Shown piece after piece: positions 2,160 through 43,276 of a stretch of DNA of 44,052 bases (position 1 is the stretch's first letter; every line of letters begins with the position of its first letter). The position numbers and the translations under genes are program-made. The notes under the pieces were generated by a model. The model was not told where the DNA came from, made no database searches, and was given only the letters and a program-made list of their open reading frames with translations. The stretch is from the NCBI GenBank assembly GCA_020630675.1, contig JAHDIR010000023.1, forward strand, positions 1 to 44,052. Direction: 5' to 3'. Source of the DNA: Bdellovibrionales bacterium (GTDB lineage: Bacteria > Bdellovibrionota > Bdellovibrionia > Bdellovibrionales > UBA1609).

Positions 2160-2430
2160 GAAATTTGGGCTCGAGTTTAAAGTCCACCACTATTCTTGGG
2201 GTTTAGAACAAACTAACTAACGCGAATTTACGAGATAGCCCTTTCATTCGGGGTATTTGCTGCTTCTTTTCCGTCTTTGTAAAAAGTAAAATTTTAGAGA
2301 AAGACTTTTTTGCTACACCAAGTGCTCAAAAGACCTCAAGCTTTCCATTTCTATAAAAGAACAGGTTCACCAAGAGCCTTAAGTGCCCAACAATAATTAA
2401 TAATATGAAATAAGTTAGCTATAACTTTAC

Positions 2431-2459
2431 TTGACCCTCCGTTTAAATTCCCCTATTTA
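2431..2459 (+). promoter_or_regulatory. Candidate sigma70 promoter for nrdR operon
   Basis: TTGACC at 2431-2436 and TATTTA at 2454-2459 are separated by 17 bases, about 50 bases ahead of the nrdR start. The -35 is good; the -10 matches only the first three consensus bases, so this is a moderate candidate. Confidence 0.4.
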
Positions 2460-2507
2460 AATTAAACGATTAATTCAATTCAAAATTTTACTAAATGAGA
2501 GTTCTGA

Positions 2508-2981
2508 ATGAAATGCCCTGAATGTCAAAACACTGAAAGTAGAGTTCTCGAAACGAGAGTCTACAAAGACGACGAAATAAGAAGACGTCGTGAGTGTTCT
2601 GGTTGCAAGGCTCGTTTTACCACTGTTGAAACTGTTTTTGTAAATTACCCTCTCATCCTTAAAAGAGATGGCTGCCAAGAACCTTTTAATAAAGATAAAC
2701 TCAGAAAAGGCATTCAACTAGCTTGCCTCAAAAGACCCGTAAGCTTAGCCCAAATTGAAAACATCGTTTCAAAGGTAACAAAAGCCATCATTGAAAAATC
2801 AAATAAATCTTTCTCTGCCATTGATTTAGGTCAAATTGTTGTCAAAGAGCTTAAGTCTCTTGATGATGTTGCTTATGTGCGTTTTGCAAGTGTTTACAAA
2901 GAGTTTAAGGATGTAAAAGAGTTTGTTGAAACTCTCCAAAAAGATTACGTTTTCAAGCCACGAAACGATTCGGCTCACTAG
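2508..2981 (+). CDS. nrdR: Transcriptional repressor NrdR
   Basis: NrdR represses ribonucleotide reductase operons in response to bound ATP/dATP. The 157-aa product has the full family layout. An N-terminal zinc ribbon carries CPEC at residues 3-6 and a second Cys pair in CSGC at 31-34. A basic segment follows, with the RFTTVE motif that precedes the ATP-cone, and the ATP-cone covers about 46-136. Length is normal (150-160 aa). A GAGAG ribosome binding site lies upstream. The stop is 8 bases before nusB, and the two are probably one transcript with the next two genes. No ribonucleotide reductase gene is in the window, so regulation would be in trans. Confidence 0.95.
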   Translation: MKCPECQNTESRVLETRVYKDDEIRRRRECSGCKARFTTVETVFVNYPLILKRDGCQEPFNKDKLRKGIQLACLKRPVSLAQIENIVSKVTKAIIEKSNKSFSAIDLGQIVVKELKSLDDVAYVRFASVYKEFKDVKEFVETLQKDYVFKPRNDSAH

Positions 2982-32410: not shown

Positions 32411-33370
32411 TTATTGTAACTCATTTAAATGCTGTTTTATTTTAATAACTTCTTTTTTATTGAGTTGAAAAATGTGAGGCCGACCTGAAATAATAGCATA
32501 GTGCTTTTCTTGATCCTCAGAACTCACAGTCAATTTCCAGTTTTTAATTTGATTTGACGACTCGAACTTTAACTCTAACTCAAACAATGGGTGAATAAGA
32601 CCGTATTTATTTAACAAAGATTTATTTTGAATTTCACTAAGAAATCTAAATATAGAAATAGACTCCAATGTAGAAACTAGCTGACCCATAGATTTTCTGG
32701 TAAAAAAAACTGAAGAGTCACTGTCATTTTTCCACTGCTGCTCAGCAGAGTCGTAAGTTAGATGTGTTTCTTTGGCCCCCGACCTAAAAATAGAAAGCTT
32801 TTGAACAGAGCCAGAGTATTTATAAATATTTTTTCGTCGAAAATCATATCCTTGCTTATCTGCAAGGTTGTGCCAAAAAGAACTGGCGACAAAAACTTGG
32901 TCTTCATTGAGCTTATGCACAAAGACTTTATTATCGGCTGTGTTTAAACTTCCAACCACAAGATCTAGTACTCTCCCCTCGTGGCTTTTAAAACTTACCG
33001 TTAGTAATGGCTGACTTAAACCATATTCCACTTTTTTTTCGGGGCTAAGAGGGCCTGAGCTCACTAAAAAAACTTGGTCCTCCAAAAGCTGTGATAACAA
33101 CTGCTGTATAAACTCTTGGTCTGCAAAATCTTGTAACGGCGATTTTAGTAGCCAAACTTTGTTATTTTTTTTTACAAAGAAAGACTTTTGATTTTTTTCT
33201 ATGATATACTTAAACTCTTTGACATCTGCGGACTTTATTCCTGGAAAAATTTTAGAATTTTCTACTTTTGAATCATAAGCTTTTTTTTCATTATTGAACT
33301 CAAAAACTGAATAGCCTATAACTAAAAATACAAAGCTTGCAAAAATAAGGGTTTTAGAAAAGTACTTCAT
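32411..33370 (-). CDS. DUF4340 protein of Gld-type ABC system
   Basis: 319-aa protein with one N-terminal membrane helix (about 6-22) and a long periplasmic part. The repeated beta pattern (VKEFKYIIEKNQKSFFVKKNNKVWLL, SPLQDFADQEFIQQLLSQLLE) and the motif VEYGLSQPLLTVSFKSHEGRVLDLVVG match DUF4340. Genes of this family follow gldG-like genes in many bacteria. It overlaps the GldG-like gene upstream by 4 bases (ATGA) and ends the operon. Probably a periplasmic accessory of the transporter. Confidence 0.8.
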   Translation of the reverse strand: MKYFSKTLIFASFVFLVIGYSVFEFNNEKKAYDSKVENSKIFPGIKSADVKEFKYIIEKNQKSFFVKKNNKVWLLKSPLQDFADQEFIQQLLSQLLEDQVFLVSSGPLSPEKKVEYGLSQPLLTVSFKSHEGRVLDLVVGSLNTADNKVFVHKLNEDQVFVASSFWHNLADKQGYDFRRKNIYKYSGSVQKLSIFRSGAKETHLTYDSAEQQWKNDSDSSVFFTRKSMGQLVSTLESISIFRFLSEIQNKSLLNKYGLIHPLFELELKFESSNQIKNWKLTVSSEDQEKHYAIISGRPHIFQLNKKEVIKIKQHLNELQ

Positions 33371-34899
33371 GCCGATTTTCTTTTAAAGTAAACAAAACCA
33401 CTCATCATCAATAAAAAAAGAGGAAATAATACTCCTGCTAAAATCACCGTATTTTGTAAGCGACCAGTCATTATTAAAACGGTCCCTTTAAGTTTTTTTT
33501 CAGGCACCTGAATAAGGTCTGGCTCTTTGGCTAAATAGGCCAAGGCGTTCAAGCCTAAGCGTCGATTCACCCCATGAACGATATCTTTGTTAGTTAAAAA
33601 ATCACTATCACCAAAAACAACTAAACCAAAATTACTATTATTTTTTTTTGTCACTTCTAAAGCGATTACTTTTTCTTGGCGGACTCCCGCTTTGACTTCA
33701 ACTTGTAGCTCTTTCACTGTAAAACTCTCTTGAGCGGAATATACTAAAGGCCGATAGTTATAGTCACTGTCAGGGCTAGTCTCAACGTGATTTAATTCAC
33801 TAGCAAGTTCAAAAATAGCGTAAGGCGCCCCCATAACTCCTAAGGGTTTAGAGATCAAAGACTCTTGATCAAAGCGCAAACCCAAAGCAGAAGAAGCACT
33901 CCGCCCTAACTTTTCAGCCACCTCACCAATGATATAGTTGTTTCTAAATAAAACGCCCATATAAGATAAAAGTTGCTCAACGCCATGGTTAACTCCAGGG
34001 TCTGCAGCCACCAATAAACGTCCACCTTGTTTTAAGTAATTCGTCAAAGCCACAACTTCATTGGGAAACAATTTTAATCGTGGGCCGACTAAAGCAAGGG
34101 CACTTGCATCTTGAGGGATTGTTACTTTGGTCATAACAAAGTTTAGCTCTTTAACGTCAAAGGCCATGGCCTCTAATGAGTTCTTAAGATCAAGCAAGCC
34201 CGCTGGCTCTTTTGAGTCCAAAGCAGCTTCACCATGCCCCTTCATAAAATAAATTGTCTTTTTACTTTTTCGGGTGGCTCGAATTAAAGCGGTTGTAAAG
34301 TTTTTTTCATTCATCGGGTATTCAACTTTAATTTGTCGCTCGCCCATTGATACTATAGAGATCATTTCTCCTTGCGATGAAAACTTTTGAAGCTGCTTTT
34401 CAGCTTTTAAACGATCAGAATAAGAGTTCACAAAATAAGATTTAAGAAAACGATTTTTACTTCTATAGCGATCAATTAATTGCTTAACAGCTAATTTGAT
34501 CACCTGATCTTCAGCACCTCTATAGTAGGTTGTCACTTTTATAGGTTGGTCAATATTTTTTAGTAAAGCCTCTGTTTCTTGGCTTAAGGTGTTTAGTTGG
34601 TTACTGCTTAAGTCCCAAGATTTATCTTTGAGAACACTTAAAAAATTAACTGCTCCAAAAAGTAAAAAGACTAAGAGAATTATAACTCCCATATTCATGC
34701 CTTTTTTTGTTGTTTTCAGTTGCAAAAATTGAATGTAAAATTTTATATCTACAACTAACGCAGCAAAAAAACTAACCATAAAAAAAGCGAGAGGAAAAAA
34801 GAGGTAATTCACCCAACCACCAAGAGCCACCCGACAAATAATTAAAAGTAAAAAAGCAAAAATAGAAATAGCTAAAAAAATTTGACCGTATCTGCTCAT
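33367..34899 (-). CDS. GldG-like ABC transporter auxiliary protein
   Basis: 510-aa membrane protein. The ATG at 34899 is chosen because a perfect GGAGGTGAT box precedes it; the open frame runs 17 codons further. Two N-terminal helices and a third start the protein, followed by a large periplasmic domain (INTLSQETEALLKNIDQPIKVTTYY-type strand, then KTIYFMKGHGEAAL and GGRLLVAADPGVNHG) and a C-terminal helix near residue 480-505. This fits the GldG/ABC_transp_aux family. It lies 4 bases after the permease gene. In gliding Bacteroidota GldA-F-G is needed for motility; in other phyla the substrate is unknown. Confidence 0.82.
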   Translation of the reverse strand: MSRYGQIFLAISIFAFLLLIICRVALGGWVNYLFFPLAFFMVSFFAALVVDIKFYIQFLQLKTTKKGMNMGVIILLVFLLFGAVNFLSVLKDKSWDLSSNQLNTLSQETEALLKNIDQPIKVTTYYRGAEDQVIKLAVKQLIDRYRSKNRFLKSYFVNSYSDRLKAEKQLQKFSSQGEMISIVSMGERQIKVEYPMNEKNFTTALIRATRKSKKTIYFMKGHGEAALDSKEPAGLLDLKNSLEAMAFDVKELNFVMTKVTIPQDASALALVGPRLKLFPNEVVALTNYLKQGGRLLVAADPGVNHGVEQLLSYMGVLFRNNYIIGEVAEKLGRSASSALGLRFDQESLISKPLGVMGAPYAIFELASELNHVETSPDSDYNYRPLVYSAQESFTVKELQVEVKAGVRQEKVIALEVTKKNNSNFGLVVFGDSDFLTNKDIVHGVNRRLGLNALAYLAKEPDLIQVPEKKLKGTVLIMTGRLQNTVILAGVLFPLFLLMMSGFVYFKRKSA

Positions 34900-34903
34900 G
34901 ATA

Positions 34904-35668
34904 TCACCTCCATCTCGATGATTCCAAAACTCTTTCGGAAAGAAAGACAAACAAGGCCGATAAACTTAAAAAGTATATAAATGAACTCCAACGAAAGGTT
35001 CCTTTAACAAAACCAAATAAATGATCACCCACCGACATATGCTCCATGACCGCAATAAAAACATCATTATCAGAAGAGGTCGAACCCTGACTTAAAAACC
35101 AAAGCCCTAGGTTAAAGACAACTCCCATGATGACGCTTAAAAGTAAGGACCGAGTCATTGAGGAGCTTAACAGGCCGATAGCGACATAAACAAAGGTCAT
35201 TAAAGTCAACCCCAGATAAGACGAAAACACTAAACTGTAGTTTACTTCTGAAATAAGGCCTGACAACAAAGGGTATAGTATAGAAATAAAAAGTAAAAGA
35301 AGGCTAGCCCCTAAACCAGCTATATATTTACCCATGATGATTTGACAGGAACTGACAGGGGACGTCATTAAAAGGTCATAAGTCCGGCGATTTTTTTCTT
35401 CACATATGAGCTTCATTGTTAAGGCAGGAACAACAAATATAAAAACCATATTTACAAGAGATATATGCCCTGTCACAACACCTTGATGAAGGCTTACAGT
35501 CACTGAATTAAAAACTTTTGGAGCACTTGAGTTAAAAGCAAATTGAATAAGTGATTTAATATAACTAAAACTCCACAAAAAAGTGCACAAGCTTGAAACC
35601 ATTAAAAACACAGGACTAAAAACTATGCTTTTAATATCTCTTTTAGCAATGTAAAGCATTGAGTTCAT
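34904..35668 (-). CDS. ABC-2 type permease (GldF-like)
   Basis: 254-aa polytopic membrane protein with about six helices, including VFLMVSSLCTFLWSFSYI and the final FIYFLSLSALFVFLSERVLE. The conserved CEEKNRRTYDLLMTSPVS lies after the second helix, the signature loop of ABC-2 exporters such as GldF. It shares ATGA with the stop of the ATPase gene upstream. It probably forms the channel with the ATPase and the GldG-like protein. Confidence 0.88.
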   Translation of the reverse strand: MNSMLYIAKRDIKSIVFSPVFLMVSSLCTFLWSFSYIKSLIQFAFNSSAPKVFNSVTVSLHQGVVTGHISLVNMVFIFVVPALTMKLICEEKNRRTYDLLMTSPVSSCQIIMGKYIAGLGASLLLLFISILYPLLSGLISEVNYSLVFSSYLGLTLMTFVYVAIGLLSSSMTRSLLLSVIMGVVFNLGLWFLSQGSTSSDNDVFIAVMEHMSVGDHLFGFVKGTFRWSSFIYFLSLSALFVFLSERVLESSRWR

Positions 35669-36615
35669 TCAGAAGCCCCTTGTTTATCTTGGCGGCGTTT
35701 TCGGTGGGTTAAGCGTTGAAAAATACTTTCTAGCCCGGGGCTTTTACCAGCTCTAAAACCTACTAACCCAGAGCCTGACCCCACAATGTGACCAGACAGC
35801 TGCTCACCAGAAAGTTGCTCGCTGTCTATATGAATTTCAAAACCTGAAGACATAGGGGTTATTTTGATAACGCCTGGTAGTTGATTTAAATTTTTTTTCA
35901 ACTTATCTTCGTCCCGTAAAACTTCCACCTCATAAGATTTTGGAGTGTCATTTTTTTGCGTTAAATTTTCAAGGGTGTCTTGAACGACAATACTGCCTTC
36001 ATTAATAATTATCACTCGTTCACAAGTAGCTTGAACCTCGCTCAAGATATGGGTAGATATTAACAGAGTATGATCACCTTTTAGGTTGAGAATTAAACTT
36101 CGAATTTCTTGAACTTGATTAGGGTCTAAGCCTACCGTCGGTTCATCTAAAATAAGCACTTTTGGTTTAGAAACTAAAGCTCCAGCAATGCCCACTCTTT
36201 GTTTATAACCTTTAGATAAGTTTCCCACCCAACGATTTTTTACTGTTTCTAGTTGAGTTTTCTCCAAGGCCTCACCGACATAGGAAACAATATTTTCTGA
36301 AGAAACATTTTTTAAATGAGCAACAAAACGAAGATAATCTTGAACATACATATCTTCGTACACCGGAGGTACTTCTGGTAAATAGCCAATCATCGACTTA
36401 ACAGCTAAAGGGTTTTCAAAAACATCTAAATCAGAAATTCTTGCAACACCGCTGGTAGCTGGCATATAGCCAGATAAGATCTTCATGGTTGTACTTTTAC
36501 CGGCCCCATTAGGGCCAAGGAACCCAACTACACTTCCTGCTTGGATAGAAAAATTTAGGTTATCAATGGCTTTGCGCTCGCCATATTTTTTGGTCAACTG
36601 TGTGACTTCTATCAT
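35665..36615 (-). CDS. ABC transporter ATP-binding protein (GldA-like)
   Basis: 316-aa ATPase. Walker A is GPNGAGKST, the signature is NLSKGYKQRV (LSKGY in place of LSGGQ), and Walker B is LILDEPTVGLD, with the H-loop in LLISTHI. The C-terminal ~90 residues beyond the ATPase core are the usual GldA/CcmA-type extension. The ATG at 36615 follows GGAG, so the eight-codon extension to 36639 is not used. First gene of the ATPase-permease-GldG-DUF4340 set. The NFACT gene lies 56 bases upstream and could be on the same mRNA. Confidence 0.93.
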   Translation of the reverse strand: MIEVTQLTKKYGERKAIDNLNFSIQAGSVVGFLGPNGAGKSTTMKILSGYMPATSGVARISDLDVFENPLAVKSMIGYLPEVPPVYEDMYVQDYLRFVAHLKNVSSENIVSYVGEALEKTQLETVKNRWVGNLSKGYKQRVGIAGALVSKPKVLILDEPTVGLDPNQVQEIRSLILNLKGDHTLLISTHILSEVQATCERVIIINEGSIVVQDTLENLTQKNDTPKSYEVEVLRDEDKLKKNLNQLPGVIKITPMSSGFEIHIDSEQLSGEQLSGHIVGSGSGLVGFRAGKSPGLESIFQRLTHRKRRQDKQGASE

Positions 36616-36671
36616 TGATTCTCCATAAGTTTTATCCAAAAAAACTTAAAACCCTTACTGATAATAGAAAA

Positions 36672-38119: not shown

Positions 38120-39388
38120 TTAATTTGAAGGCCCATAGAGTTCTTCATAAGGATTTTCATTTGTTCTCTTTGGCTCTTGAGTCTTCTTAGTATCGTAAGG
38201 GTTGCTCGAAATTTCATCACTGACTGGTCTTTCATTTAACCCAAATGTACTTTTTATCCTATTTTCGTAACTTCCTGGCTTTAACTCTTTTGGTCCGAGT
38301 ACTCTCTCTACTTTATTAGATAATGATGGAATTTGCTTCCTAAGCTTGCTCTCAACGTTAGCCCCTAAAGATTTCGGCGAAATTGCATTTTTTATTTTTT
38401 CTGAAGTTATGGTTGCATTATCAACTGGCTCATAAATTGTATCAGAGCTTGGCTTATTAGGGTGTTCACCAACTTCATTAGTTGATTTTGTATTAAATTG
38501 CTCTTCTGTCACATCATTTGTAAATTTACTTTCTGGGTGCTCAAACCCATCACCTGAAGATTCCACATTTGCCTTTTCACTAACGGGAATATCATATGGG
38601 TTTCTAGCTACAGATAAGTCTGAGCCCTCACTGCTATCACTAGCTTTAGAGGTTTCTTGTGGTTGAAAAACTTGAACATATTCCGAACTATCTTCAGCAG
38701 CTGGTGCAAGGTAAAACACATTTTGATTGACTTCATTACCTTCTGATTCAATAACTTGATTTACTCTTAGTATATCACAAGCTACAGTAGAGCCTTCTTT
38801 GTCAGATGTGTTCTGACAACTCACATTGGTGTTTTCACTATCAACATAAGTGGTTCTAGTTTCTTCATCCATCCAATCAGTAACTGTGGCTTTACCATCT
38901 ACTATTGAAATGGTAGCCACCAGGCTCTGCCCTGTTACAGCTTGACGTCTTAACTGAACATTAACTTCTTCTTGATTAGAGCTATCTAATGAGGACTCAT
39001 TGTTTACCACAGCAGAGTATTCGCTATAGTTTTTAAAAAACTCATCAGCATCAAAATTATCCTGTTGTTTTAAAAAAGCAATAAATTCAGCAACACTTTT
39101 ATTTGTTTCGTCAGAAGAATCTAGAAATTGCTTCATTTGTTCAGCAACCTCTTGATCTTGCTGAGCCTTTGATTCCGACATTTTTTTTTGTAAGGCCATA
39201 AGTTCTTTTTTATTACTTTCAGCTGTTTTAAAATTAGTACAAACTGTTGAATCAGGAACAACACATGGGCCAGTTGGGCCGCCAATTGAGTTTTGATTGG
39301 ATTTAAACCCTCGGTTGGTATCACAAGACACGGCTATAAGTAATGTCGAAGTTAAGGCCAAGCTTCCTAAAATTTTTGAATACTTCAT
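38120..39388 (-). CDS. Large predicted lipoprotein with NPY motifs
   Basis: 422-aa lipoprotein with no recognised domain. The ATG at 39388 is chosen because AAAGGAG lies upstream and the product starts MKYSKILGSLALTSTLLIAVSC, lipobox Cys22; the frame extends 36 codons further without support. A helical, Lys/Gln/Glu-rich region (about 45-110) is followed by a beta-like middle with two Cys (VSCQN, VACDI) and a long Ser/Glu/Asn-rich, likely disordered tail. The tail holds NPYD twice and NPYE once (about residues 263, 396, 412). The gene is monocistronic, ends at a strong terminator, and diverges from the ECF sigma gene. Confidence 0.65.
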   Translation of the reverse strand: MKYSKILGSLALTSTLLIAVSCDTNRGFKSNQNSIGGPTGPCVVPDSTVCTNFKTAESNKKELMALQKKMSESKAQQDQEVAEQMKQFLDSSDETNKSVAEFIAFLKQQDNFDADEFFKNYSEYSAVVNNESSLDSSNQEEVNVQLRRQAVTGQSLVATISIVDGKATVTDWMDEETRTTYVDSENTNVSCQNTSDKEGSTVACDILRVNQVIESEGNEVNQNVFYLAPAAEDSSEYVQVFQPQETSKASDSSEGSDLSVARNPYDIPVSEKANVESSGDGFEHPESKFTNDVTEEQFNTKSTNEVGEHPNKPSSDTIYEPVDNATITSEKIKNAISPKSLGANVESKLRKQIPSLSNKVERVLGPKELKPGSYENRIKSTFGLNERPVSDEISSNPYDTKKTQEPKRTNENPYEELYGPSN

Positions 39389-39540
39389 TTGGGTTTTCTC
39401 CTTTAAAAACATCAGTTCAATCAATATGGGAGTAGCAAATCCCAATCCAGAAAACGACCACACCCATTTTAATAAAATTAAACACTTACCGCTCAAAAAA
39501 AATGTATACAGAAAAGCTGTGACGTAAATTGTTAGTCAGC

Positions 39541-39568
39541 CGAACTCCTATTTGTCCTCAAGTGTCAT
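39541..39568 (+). promoter_or_regulatory. Candidate ECF-type promoter upstream of sigma gene
   Basis: CGAAC (39541-39545) and GTCA (39564-39567) lie at ECF spacing, with 18 bases between GAAC and GTCA, about 20 bases before the sigma factor start. This fits the GAAC/GTC element type that ECF factors use for autoregulation. Confidence 0.35.
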
Positions 39569-39586
39569 CCGTAGTAATAAGATAGA

Positions 39587-40138
39587 GTGGATATAAATGA
39601 TCAGCTTGAAGTTGAGCTCTTAGTTAAAAAATGCCAAGAAGAGGCACCTTACGGCATGAGGGCCTTTGAGGCCTTAGTGAATGCCTTCGAGCCTTCTGTT
39701 TACCGGCTTTGTTTGAATTACATTAAAAACTCTGCCGACGCCGAAGACCTTGTTCAAACCATTTTTCTGCGTGTTTTCCATAATATTAAAAATTTCAAAG
39801 GAGACTCGAGCTTTAAAACCTGGCTATATAGAGTTTCTATCAATCAGTGCAATGACCTTTATAAAAAGAAAAAACGGCAAAAAGAACTCCGCGAAGGGCT
39901 TCAAACTGAAGAGGTGCAAACCTCCTCCCCTCCTGAGGCTGACAACCTTGAGCTTCGCGAACAAATTGAGCAGGGCCTAGAAAAGCTAAGCCCACAAGAA
40001 CGTGAGGTGATTGTACTTAGGTTTTACGAAGGCTTCAAAATTCAGGAAATTGCTGAAACTCTGGGGATTCAACTCAGCGCTGCAAAAATGAGACTTTCTC
40101 GTGCCATAGAACACTTTAAAATACTTTATGACCCCTGA
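39587..40138 (+). CDS. ECF-type RNA polymerase sigma factor
   Basis: 183-aa extracytoplasmic-function sigma factor. Region 2 covers about 20-95 (AFEALVNAFEPSVYRLCLNY, DAEDLVQTIFLRVF, WLYRVSINQCNDLYKKKKR). Region 4 covers about 125-178 (LEKLSPQEREVIVLRFYEGFKIQEIAETLG, SAAKMRLSRA). The start is GTG; an upstream ECF-like promoter points to autoregulation. Downstream are a small membrane protein and an MscS-type channel, all co-oriented. No anti-sigma factor with the zinc HxxxCxxC motif follows. The layout recalls sigX-cfrX-cmpX of Pseudomonas, although gene order differs there. Confidence 0.92.
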   Translation: MDINDQLEVELLVKKCQEEAPYGMRAFEALVNAFEPSVYRLCLNYIKNSADAEDLVQTIFLRVFHNIKNFKGDSSFKTWLYRVSINQCNDLYKKKKRQKELREGLQTEEVQTSSPPEADNLELREQIEQGLEKLSPQEREVIVLRFYEGFKIQEIAETLGIQLSAAKMRLSRAIEHFKILYDP

Positions 40139-40218
40139 TGTGACTAAACAACAGCCCAAAGAGTCTATATAAACAAGAAGTCGCTGAAAATGAGCGCAAA
40201 AACGAAAAAGAGGAAAAA

Positions 40219-40494
40219 ATGAGTAAACTAGCTAAAACTCAAGAAATCACAGAAGAAGAGATCAGACGCCTATTGGAGGCCGACCGTGCCCATAGCCCGC
40301 AAGTCAATAACCAACAGCGCCGGCAAGCTTCTGTGAAAAATATCGTACAAAAGGCAAAAACAGAAACTTCAGCCAAGGCAGTGGCTGAGTACACAACTGT
40401 TTCGATTTGGACAGCCATGTTGGAATTTGTCGCAGTTTTTTGTATTTTTATGAACCAAAAGAGTGTAAACAAAAAGAGTATAGATAAAGACTAG
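40219..40494 (+). CDS. Small membrane protein between sigma factor and MscS gene
   Basis: 91-aa protein with a charged helical N-terminal half (EITEEEIRRLLEADR) and one transmembrane helix at about 59-80 (TTVSIWTAMLEFVAVFCIFM), ending in a Lys-rich tail. The ATG follows AAAGAGGAAA. There are no ZAS-type zinc ligands. It could act as a membrane-bound partner of the sigma factor or channel. The position matches CfrX in Pseudomonas, but I cannot confirm homology by eye. Confidence 0.6.
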   Translation: MSKLAKTQEITEEEIRRLLEADRAHSPQVNNQQRRQASVKNIVQKAKTETSAKAVAEYTTVSIWTAMLEFVAVFCIFMNQKSVNKKSIDKD

Positions 40495-40505
40495 GAGCCT
40501 CTCAA

Positions 40506-41339
40506 ATGGAAATGAGCACTTTTCAAAGTAACCTTATTGAATCCCTACTATCCATGTGGAAAAATATCACCCAATTTTTACCCAACCTATTATTTGCCAT
40601 AGTTATTTTTGTTGTTGGTTATTTTATTGCTTCTTTTGTTCGTAAAGTCGCCAGTAAAGCTCTTGCTAAAATTGGCATTAACCAAATGAGTGACCGCATG
40701 AAGCTCACTGAGAGCCTGCGCGGCATGGGCATTAAATCCAGCTTAGCTGACTTAATTGGAAAAATTTTATTTTACCTTCTAATGCTAGGAGTTTTAATTA
40801 CGGCCTCGGACGTTCTTAAAATGGAAAAGCTTTCGCAAGCTATCGAAGGTTTTATTAATTATATTCCTAATATTTTTGGCGCAGGTTTTATTTTATTTCT
40901 CACACAAATGGCAGGGCTATTCATTAGAGAAGCCATCGAAGCCACCTCTGAACACCTCAACTTTGACTACGGCAAAGCTGTCAGTCGAGCCGTATATGCT
41001 CTCATCTTTGTCATCGGTTTAGTTTTAGCTTTTGGACAATTACAAATTGAAACTGAGCTTCTGAGCAATGTGATTCAAATTTTACTTTTAGCTGCCGGCG
41101 CATCGATAGGTATTTCTCTAGGCTTAGGAACAAAAACTGTGTCTAGCCAAATTGTCTCAGGTGTTTACGTTCGTGAAGGCTTTGAAAATGGGGATGAAAT
41201 TTCTTTAGACGATATCTCTGGAACTGTTGTTGATGTTGGCTCAGTAACAACTAGAGTACAAAAAGCTAATGGGGAAATTGTTTATGTTCCAAATAATAAA
41301 ATTATTGAAAACGTCGTTCATTGCAAAAAAAGATCTTAA
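40506..41339 (+). CDS. Mechanosensitive ion channel, MscS family (CmpX-like)
   Basis: 277-aa inner-membrane channel. About five helices are seen: 25-45, 82-103, 116-140, 158-178 and the pore helix at 185-209, whose AAGASIGISLGLG is the Gly/Ala-rich TM3 pattern. A short beta domain follows: VREGFENGDEISLDDISGTVVDVGSVTTRV with VPNNKIIENVV. The C-terminal alpha/beta domain of MscS is absent, as in CmpX-type proteins. It begins 11 bases after the small membrane protein stop, so the three genes are probably one operon. Likely opens under membrane tension. Confidence 0.85.
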   Translation: MEMSTFQSNLIESLLSMWKNITQFLPNLLFAIVIFVVGYFIASFVRKVASKALAKIGINQMSDRMKLTESLRGMGIKSSLADLIGKILFYLLMLGVLITASDVLKMEKLSQAIEGFINYIPNIFGAGFILFLTQMAGLFIREAIEATSEHLNFDYGKAVSRAVYALIFVIGLVLAFGQLQIETELLSNVIQILLLAAGASIGISLGLGTKTVSSQIVSGVYVREGFENGDEISLDDISGTVVDVGSVTTRVQKANGEIVYVPNNKIIENVVHCKKRS

Positions 41340-41672
41340 CTGAAAAAAATAAGGGCAGAGCAGTGGTTAAGTGCTCCGCCCCCAAAAGGTATTTAAGCTG
41401 GTTAGGCTTAAATGGTCGTTGATTGGCCGGGTATAAGTAGTAATTACACAATATATGCCACATCAAAACTAGCTCGTTCGTCCTGAACCTCTGGTCTCAA
41501 TTGAATACTAGTCAATGTCGAATATTTTCACACCCCCCTGTTTCTAACTTTGCCCATGGCAACAAGCCTTCGAAATAACTAATAAAAAACAGCGAACTGT
41601 TTTATACTTTCATTGAAGTTATCGTATTGAGACAAAACTTTGATCAAAACTTCTTCAACTAAGGACACCTTT
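41340..41672. other. Hairpin-rich intergenic region
   Basis: No convincing gene in 333 bases. Three hairpins can be read. GGGCAGAGCA (41353-41362)/TGCTCCGCCC (41372-41381) has one mismatch. ATTTAAGC (41391-41398)/GCTTAAAT (41406-41413) is perfect. AAAACAG (41586-41592)/CTGTTTT (41597-41603) has a CGAA loop. The first is followed by a T-rich run only on the minus strand. Confidence 0.5.
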
Positions 41673-42233
41673 ATGCCCTCAACACATAGTGCAGATTTAC
41701 AAAAAAAACTCTTGTTTCAAAAAGTAGGAATTTTTATTGATGCTGAAAACATAGAGTTATCTGGGTTAAAACAACATGAGGGTCGAACGGACTATAAAAA
41801 AATCTTATCTAAAGTTGGTGAGCGAGAAATTGTTCGCATTTTATATTACAAACCCGAATACAAAGAAATTTCTAAAGACTTTGAAAGCTTTTGGCACAGC
41901 TTAGGTGGCGAAATTAAAAGACCACAAAAAAATGCTGATACTTTTTTGGTCATTGATGCGGTAACTTTAGCCGAAAAACTTGATGTAGCTATTATTCTTG
42001 GCGGAGATAAAGATTTTTTACCTCTGATTTGGTATCTAAAATCTAGAGGTTGTCGGGTGGAAATTTGGTCATGGCCGGAAACAACTTCTCCGGAAGTAAA
42101 GGAAGCCGCTGACTTTTATTTTTCTCTTACGAAAAACTTTGTTATTAAATCTAAAGAGTCTAAACCGACTAAAGCAAAGAAAAACACGAGTAAAAAATCA
42201 ACGAGCAAAAAATCAAAGTCGCCAGTCAAGTGA
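41673..42233 (+). CDS. NYN-domain (LabA/DUF88) putative ribonuclease
   Basis: 186-aa protein. The PIN-like NYN fold has its acidic residues in place: Asp23 in GIFIDAEN, Asp89 and Asp95 in NADTFLVIDAV, and Asp112/Asp114 in GGDKDFLPLI. Metal-dependent RNase activity is likely. The C-terminal ~30 residues are Lys/Ser/Thr-rich (KAKKNTSKKSTSKKSK) and would bind nucleic acid without specificity. The ATG at 41673 after AAGGA is preferred over a TTG 11 codons earlier. It is a single gene, convergent with the lipoprotein gene at 42250. Confidence 0.85.
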   Translation: MPSTHSADLQKKLLFQKVGIFIDAENIELSGLKQHEGRTDYKKILSKVGEREIVRILYYKPEYKEISKDFESFWHSLGGEIKRPQKNADTFLVIDAVTLAEKLDVAIILGGDKDFLPLIWYLKSRGCRVEIWSWPETTSPEVKEAADFYFSLTKNFVIKSKESKPTKAKKNTSKKSTSKKSKSPVK

Positions 42234-42249
42234 CCAAGAATCTTATTTT

Positions 42250-42804
42250 TTATTCTTCTGAAAGCACTATGCCCTGAACAGTACTATAAACTTTATGGCC
42301 CGAGGGGTGCTCGTACTTAAGGGGCACACTCAAATTAGATAAAGAGGCACTGATTTTATGCCCCCCAGATGTGTTCACAATAGCCGAGCCCGGAACATTA
42401 CTAATCACTGACTTTGATAACACTGGCGCTACGAACATGGCCTCAGCGTGAACATTAAACTCTAAGTTCGTTAATGTTAGATTTTTTGTTCCTGCTAAGC
42501 TAGAGGTGATTGCACATCTTGCAATCCCTTGACTATTTGTTCTTCCACAACTTCTGAGCGAAGAGTCTTCAACACTTAACTCAGGTAAAAAGTTAACAAC
42601 TGGTGACCCGTCACTGTTCAAAACATGGACCTCAATATATAAAAAGCTACTTCCGTTGGCGATACCATCGCCTAGAACCACAATTTCTGTATTGGCAAAA
42701 TCTACACCTGAAGTAAATTCAACATTCCCACCGTCAGAAAAACAGCCCGAAGTTAGAGTTAAAAAAAACGCAATATAAAAAAGCTGTAAAAATACTTTAA
42801 CCAT
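42250..42804 (-). CDS. Predicted lipoprotein with Ig-like (Big/invasin-type) domain
   Basis: 184-aa lipoprotein: MVKVFLQLFYIAFFLTLTSGC has lipobox LTSGC with Cys21. The middle (SSFLYIEVHVLNSDGSPVVNFLPELSVEDSS ... TNSQGIARCAITSS) follows the Big-1/adhesin-type Ig pattern of xxxV.v.d..G.PV.......S..... and TN..G.A. Two cysteines (in LRSCGR and ARCAI) could form a disulfide. Strong AAGGAAGG ribosome binding site. Monocistronic on the minus strand. Probably a surface or periplasm-facing structural protein; function unknown. Confidence 0.65.
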   Translation of the reverse strand: MVKVFLQLFYIAFFLTLTSGCFSDGGNVEFTSGVDFANTEIVVLGDGIANGSSFLYIEVHVLNSDGSPVVNFLPELSVEDSSLRSCGRTNSQGIARCAITSSLAGTKNLTLTNLEFNVHAEAMFVAPVLSKSVISNVPGSAIVNTSGGHKISASLSNLSVPLKYEHPSGHKVYSTVQGIVLSEE

Positions 42805-42988: not shown

Positions 42989-43276
42989 GTGGAGTATTTG
43001 GCTCAGTATCAAAATCAAATTATTGTTTGGGGAGTGCTTGGACTCTCTGCTGGCATTATAGCCAAGTACTTATTACCTGGGAAAGACAAGGGAGGGCTTA
43101 TTTCAACAGCTCTGCTAGGGGTTGCTGGGTCATTTCTGGGTGGTTTTATGGCTCGCTATTTCGGTCTGGGCGGCGCAAACCTCACTTCTGGGGTAAGTCT
43201 TTCAACTGTGCTTACAGCCATTGCCGGGTCATTTGTTTTACTTGTCGCTTTTCGCCTAATAAGGTTTTTAGTTTAA
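42989..43276 (+). CDS. GlsB/YeaQ/YmgE-family (transglycosylase-associated) membrane protein
   Basis: 95-aa membrane protein with three helices: residues 9-29, 37-57 and 68-91. The family pattern GLSAGIIAKYLLPGKDKGG followed by LLGVAGSFLGGFMARYFGLGG is clear. The start is GTG, six bases after CAGGAGG; another frame overlapping here (42919-43308) has no such signal. Members are small stress-induced inner-membrane proteins of unclear biochemical role. Adjacent to a cold-shock gene downstream but separated by about 208 bases. Confidence 0.85.
   Translation: MEYLAQYQNQIIVWGVLGLSAGIIAKYLLPGKDKGGLISTALLGVAGSFLGGFMARYFGLGGANLTSGVSLSTVLTAIAGSFVLLVAFRLIRFLV

Follow-up and report, generated by a model that had tools for sequence, protein, structure and literature searches.

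An ECF sigma factor, a 91-amino-acid protein, and a short MscS-type channel are encoded side by side in a genus of Bdellovibrionales related to predatory bacteria, and the chances are about even that the three genes form an envelope-stress operon of the SigX kind. In such an operon, the small protein would restrain the sigma factor, and the channel would act as a sensor or a co-regulator. We favor this reading because the trio is present in all four genus genomes, the sigma factor of each scores highest against SigX among curated families, and Pseudomonas aeruginosa has a parallel arrangement. Against it count a SigX model (NF007222) score below the cut-off, a different gene order, the lack of an OprF-like neighbor, and a promoter-like motif that is not enriched. 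In P. aeruginosa, moreover, overexpression of cmpX has no effect on sigX or cfrX expression (PMC10965496).

The window, meaning the whole 44,052-nucleotide stretch of DNA that was analyzed, is one contig (number 35) of the 110 that make up a 3.1 Mb genome. All three genes are on its forward strand. The sigma factor gene (39587-40138) begins with GTG and encodes 183 amino acids containing Sigma70_r2 (7.6e-19) and Sigma70_r4_2 (1.6e-15) domains. It is followed after 80 nt by the gene for the 91-amino-acid protein (40219-40494, ATG start), the positional counterpart of Pseudomonas CfrX, and, after a further 11 nt, by the gene for a CmpX-like channel of 277 amino acids (40506-41339, ATG start). 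The sequence-only reading had described an ECF sigma factor, a 91-amino-acid ORF, and a short MscS-type gene lying close together, and the ORFs and Pfam domains confirm this description. Purine-rich sequences resembling ribosome-binding sites precede the ATG of the small-protein gene (AGAGG) and that of the channel gene (AGGAG). The GTG of the sigma factor gene lacks an evident ribosome-binding-like sequence and aligns with the ATG or GTG start of its relatives. A scan of the window for Rfam families and tRNAs found none.

Co-occurrence in relatives had been proposed as a check on the trio. In the genus sample, which consists of four metagenome-assembled Bdellovibrionales genomes including the one that carries the window, the sigma factor, small protein, and channel are encoded in identical order in 4/4. 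The distance between the sigma factor gene and the small-protein gene ranges from 7 to 80 nt, and the small-protein gene almost abuts the channel gene in every case. Since this order is conserved in all four, the unit reflects more than chance. The three relatives share 54-59% of sigma factor residues with the window, 35-41% of small-protein residues, and 63-66% of channel residues.

The small protein is present in 4 of the 58 relatives searched, and these are the four genus members. Its profile, searched against 368 genomes of the phylum at an E-value of 0.01, gave six matches: the four genus members and two weak ones in G267 and G244 (E-values of 0.007 and 0.009). The weak matches were rejected as fragments with no trio in the fetched loci, and one of them contains three stop codons. 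Convincing matches to this profile thus never occur in one of the 368 genomes without the other two genes. The channel profile (E-value of 1e-35) also matched six of the 368 genomes, the four genus members and two of another genus in the family. The latter channels (G259 and G260) have no sigma factor or small-protein neighbor by profile and were not taken as modules. In one genus member, G002, another CmpX-like channel gene, more distant than the first, lies on locus L022 (1411-2313, minus strand), with an ORF of 89 amino acids directly ahead of it (2313-2582, minus strand) that has no match to the small-protein profile. The layout of this pair is similar, but it was set aside as a module, with no sigma factor gene in the fetched stretch.

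Wider searches were also performed. A profile search of genome contigs with the channel alignment returned six loci, three of them genus mates and none from Pseudomonas. A match on an Acinetobacter plasmid is a longer, multi-repeat channel and not a module. Searches for relatives of the small protein were negative in plasmids and in 296 genomes from the phylum of a Bacteroidetes metagenome-assembled genome, the latter search having no positive control. Viral contigs gave no match for the channel or small-protein queries, and the sigma factor query matched three viral loci at 21-28% identity. The trio is inherited within the genus and is found nowhere else in the 368-genome phylum sample.

The flanks are largely syntenic, which indicates that the trio is old within the genus. 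Downstream, a conserved pair of genes (42250-42804 and 42989-43276) is kept near the trio in 3/3 relatives. Between the trio and this pair lies an NYN-domain gene (41640-42233, forward strand) that is 65-87% identical in many relatives from the family and the order. It was not counted as part of the unit because it is present in only two of the four genus genomes. Upstream, a lipoprotein-like gene is encoded divergently on the minus strand (38120-39388). Its ORF was called from 39496, and its likely start is an ATG near 39388 (MKYSKILGSLALTSTLLIAVSC). The initial residues of this protein are common to the relatives and the remainder is hardly conserved; BLAST similarity is limited to the start region in two of the three relatives, and the third was recognized by eye. 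No OprF-like protein was identified among the neighbors examined. Farther upstream, at 33367-36639 on the minus strand, genes for an ABC transporter ATPase, an ABC-2 membrane protein, and an ABC_transp_aux protein stand in a row, followed by one for a DUF4340 protein. We take the ABC/ABC_transp_aux row to resemble the gliding-type GldA-GldF-GldG sets.

The sigma factor of the window has NF007222 (SigX; PRK09640; ECF102) as its top NCBIfam match, at 143.2 bits. Among the best 25 of its 125 NCBIfam matches, the ECF superfamily model scores 123 bits and other ECF models score at most 107.6. NF007222 also ranks first for the sigma factors of the three genus relatives (129.8, 126.9, and 132.2 bits). 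At an E-value of 1e-25, the model matches 46 of the 368 phylum genomes, with the four genus members at 126.5-143.2 bits and the other 42 at 90.9-101.7. Two of those 42 were tested as controls; their ECF factors have RpoE as the top family, and SigX ranks 10 and 7. The equivalog cut-off of NF007222 is 194 bits, and none of the 46 matching phylum genomes reaches it. Since the model ranks first but below its cut-off, the sigma factors are SigX-like by sequence and are not SigX members by the curated test. A tblastn search with the window channel and small protein against the fetched stretches of 26 of the 42 other ECF loci found no relatives. The earlier comparison to SigX therefore holds for the first-ranked family in 4/4 and for the conserved neighbors, but not for curated membership or for the order of the genes.

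The 91-amino-acid protein has no useful family match in Pfam or NCBIfam, no anti-sigma domain match in Pfam, and no match below an E-value of 0.28 in the PDB. It had been described as a single-helix membrane protein. A hydrophobic stretch lies near residues 60-78, and its best 19-residue Kyte-Doolittle window has a mean of 1.95 (1.87, 1.83, and 1.42 in the relatives). Because these values are modest and an invariant Glu69 lies inside the stretch, the predicted membrane helix is borderline. Most of the invariant residues are in the second half of the protein, around W64, LEF at 68-70, and K81-V83-K85. The AF2 model is of low confidence (mean pLDDT of 65.7) and places a helix at residues 12-24 and a long helix at 30-86.

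The 277-amino-acid protein matches MS_channel_1st_1 (PF05552, a conserved transmembrane helix; 3.6e-20) and MS_channel_2nd (PF00924, the MscS beta domain; 3e-10, 40.5 bits against a cut-off of 20.2). Like MscS-family channels, it has both Pfam domains above cut-off, and the family model NF033912 scores 70 bits, with a cut-off of 100. All seven members of the channel alignment match MS_channel_2nd at an E-value of 0.001. Positions 116-268 of the channel profile align with residues 24-172 of the 286 in Escherichia coli MscS, so the protein has TM1-TM3 and the beta parts, lacks the cage, and extends about 115 residues farther at its N terminus, ahead of the aligned part. Unlike in E. coli MscS, where the chain continues after residue 172, the channel ends 9 residues past the last MscS-aligned position and has no C-terminal cage domain. 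The AF2 model of the channel (mean pLDDT of 72.1 from 7 rows) has no more than a short strand at its C-terminal end, and its best Foldseek matches are MscS structures (E-value of 1.3e-7) with TM-scores of only about 0.3. Four further beta-domain proteins are encoded in the same genome.

Upstream of the sigma factor gene, a GAAC-N18-GTCA element (39542-39567, forward strand) had been put forward as an ECF-like promoter. This candidate did not survive comparison. Within 190 bp upstream of the sigma factor gene, the loose motif is present in only one of the four genus genomes, and its occurrence in the window is at chance level (0.86 occurrences expected and 2 observed, a number attained in 23 of 100 shuffles). 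A better conserved block, TGACGTAAATTGTTAGTCA, lies just ahead of it (39520-39538, forward strand), and its first 16 nt are identical in three of the four genus genomes. The word TGACGTAAATTGTTAG is exactly common to the same fraction of upstream regions (3/4), and shuffling these three regions 300 times gave common words of at most 8 nt. The ends of the block, TGAC-N11-GTCA (TGAC-N11-GACA in one relative), flank a conserved AT-rich core. Two shorter blocks on the forward strand keep their distance from the start codon in three genomes of the four: TTTGTC (39551-39556) at -36/-37 and C[GA]TAGTA (39570-39576) at -17/-18. In G003, TGACGTAAATTGTTAG and both shorter blocks are absent from that upstream position.

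The block at 39520-39538 is a possible operator for some regulator, a possible -35 region, or both, and the conserved intergenic DNA may also serve the divergent lipoprotein-like gene. A TTGTTAG-N16-17-TTGTC arrangement in the conserved block resembles an ECF promoter. Searched genome-wide with a spacing of N16-18, this motif gave 4, 2, 5, and 1 occurrences in G000-G003 versus 1, 2, 4, and 3 for the reversed control. As it is not enriched over the control, no regulon was derived from it. A sigma-70 promoter scan found three sites, all on the minus strand, where 4.9 were expected.

The known system of this kind is that of P. aeruginosa. There, cmaX-cfrX-cmpX lies directly upstream of sigX, cfrX-cmpX is driven by SigX, and membrane stiffening raises sigX (PMC7641640). 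CfrX is 84 residues long; as of 2020, neither where it is located nor what it does had been demonstrated (PMC7641640). SigX is said to have no co-encoded anti-sigma factor (PMC3832394). A 2022 review describes CfrX as soluble and as a putative anti-sigma factor, which bears on the claim of the sequence-only reading that the circuit has no classical anti-sigma factor, and proposes CfrX, CmpX, and OprF as a mechanosensing complex (PMC8999054). In a cmpX mutant, sigX transcription is reduced, and on cmpX overexpression, sigX and cfrX expression is unchanged (PMC10965496). An I59N change in CfrX (spelled CrfX) has been reported in a ceftazidime-passaged isolate (PMC8721600).

The likeness to this module consists of a SigX-like ECF gene beside a small-protein gene and then an MscS-type gene; the MscS-type gene is directly 3' of the small-protein gene, as in the SigX-CfrX-CmpX module, in all four genus genomes. 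The small proteins (91 and 84 amino acids) are likened by position and size. In contrast to P. aeruginosa, where sigX is downstream of cmpX, the sigma factor gene comes first here, and neither cmaX nor oprF is beside the trio. The borderline membrane helix of the 91-amino-acid protein also differs from the soluble CfrX of the review (PMC8999054). RpoE/RseA-type pairs are similar in that the gene after the sigma factor gene encodes a small protein that may be membrane-bound. However, SigX is the first-ranked model for the sigma factor here, with RpoE well below it, and the small protein has no Pfam anti-sigma domain.

By analogy with P. aeruginosa, we infer a series of regulatory steps that includes an anti-sigma role for the small protein, a sensing role for the channel, and autoregulation. 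The CfrX-like protein would keep the sigma factor inactive. Translated from one shared message with the cage-less MscS-type channel, it would lie beside that channel, at or within the inner membrane. A shift in membrane tension or stiffness would alter the channel, and this change would be relayed to the small protein, resulting in release of the sigma factor. The freed sigma factor would then transcribe envelope genes and probably its own operon.

Stress sigma operons commonly include an anti-sigma factor and a target gene. This favors an alternative in which the channel is mere output: the 91-amino-acid protein would be a plain anti-sigma factor that senses a signal of its own, and the MscS-type protein would be a co-transcribed osmotic valve. 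We hold this to be tentatively plausible; it ranks close behind the SigX operon reading, and sequence decides neither. In P. aeruginosa, SigX targets both cfrX and cmpX (PMC7641640), and the unchanged sigX and cfrX on cmpX overexpression agrees with an output role, but the lower sigX transcription in the cmpX mutant does not (PMC10965496). Two further points speak against it, each a weak discriminator: of the three proteins, conservation is highest in the channel (63-66%, compared with 35-41% in the small protein), and the profile finds no copy of the small protein away from this channel.

A stronger version of the SigX operon reading, which we regard as rather doubtful, is that the trio is one mechanosensing unit common to Pseudomonas and this Bdellovibrionales genus. 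The cage-less channel would act as the tension receptor, the CfrX-like helix with its invariant Glu would rest against the channel and hold the sigma factor, and transcription would be switched by the state of the channel, with no need for an anti-sigma factor to be proteolyzed. The opposite view is convergence, in which this genus separately brought together an ordinary ECF gene, a gene of MscS type, and a small gene with no kinship to CfrX. It would account for the confinement of the trio to one genus of the phylum sample, the NF007222 scores under the cut-off, and a small protein that lacks a family match and has no relatives in plasmids or in the 296 Bacteroidetes-phylum genomes (searched without a positive control). 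We find it improbable, as SigX outscores every other curated family in 4/4 whereas two other ECF factors of the phylum prefer RpoE, and chance sharing of a sigma factor subtype and two kinds of neighbor is unlikely. Least probable by far is a shared operon without a shared function, in which the small protein is an accessory subunit of the channel and the sigma factor is regulated at transcription only: the nearly touching small-protein and channel genes (4/4, against a sigma factor gap of 7 to 80 nt), the conserved upstream block as a possible operator, and the existence of ECF factors without an anti-sigma factor (PMC8999054 and PMC3832394) are compatible with it, but the operon order is fixed in 4/4 and equivalent kinds of genes adjoin sigX in Pseudomonas.

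This kind of system is known; its occurrence in this phylum, its gene order, and the family of its small protein are, as far as our searches go, new. No report of the trio in relatives of Bdellovibrio was found in the literature covered, which was partial, came mainly from non-subscription sources, and did not include the main ECF reclassification paper. In Pseudomonas, the control of SigX is debated, with the statement that it has no co-encoded anti-sigma factor (PMC3832394) set against the later proposal of a mechanosensing complex that contains CfrX (PMC8999054). A distant, stripped-down operon of a sigma factor, a small protein, and a channel would reveal which parts are the core of such a system, and the conserved residues of the small protein would indicate a contact surface. 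The trio could thus serve as an outside comparison for how the SigX system senses the membrane.
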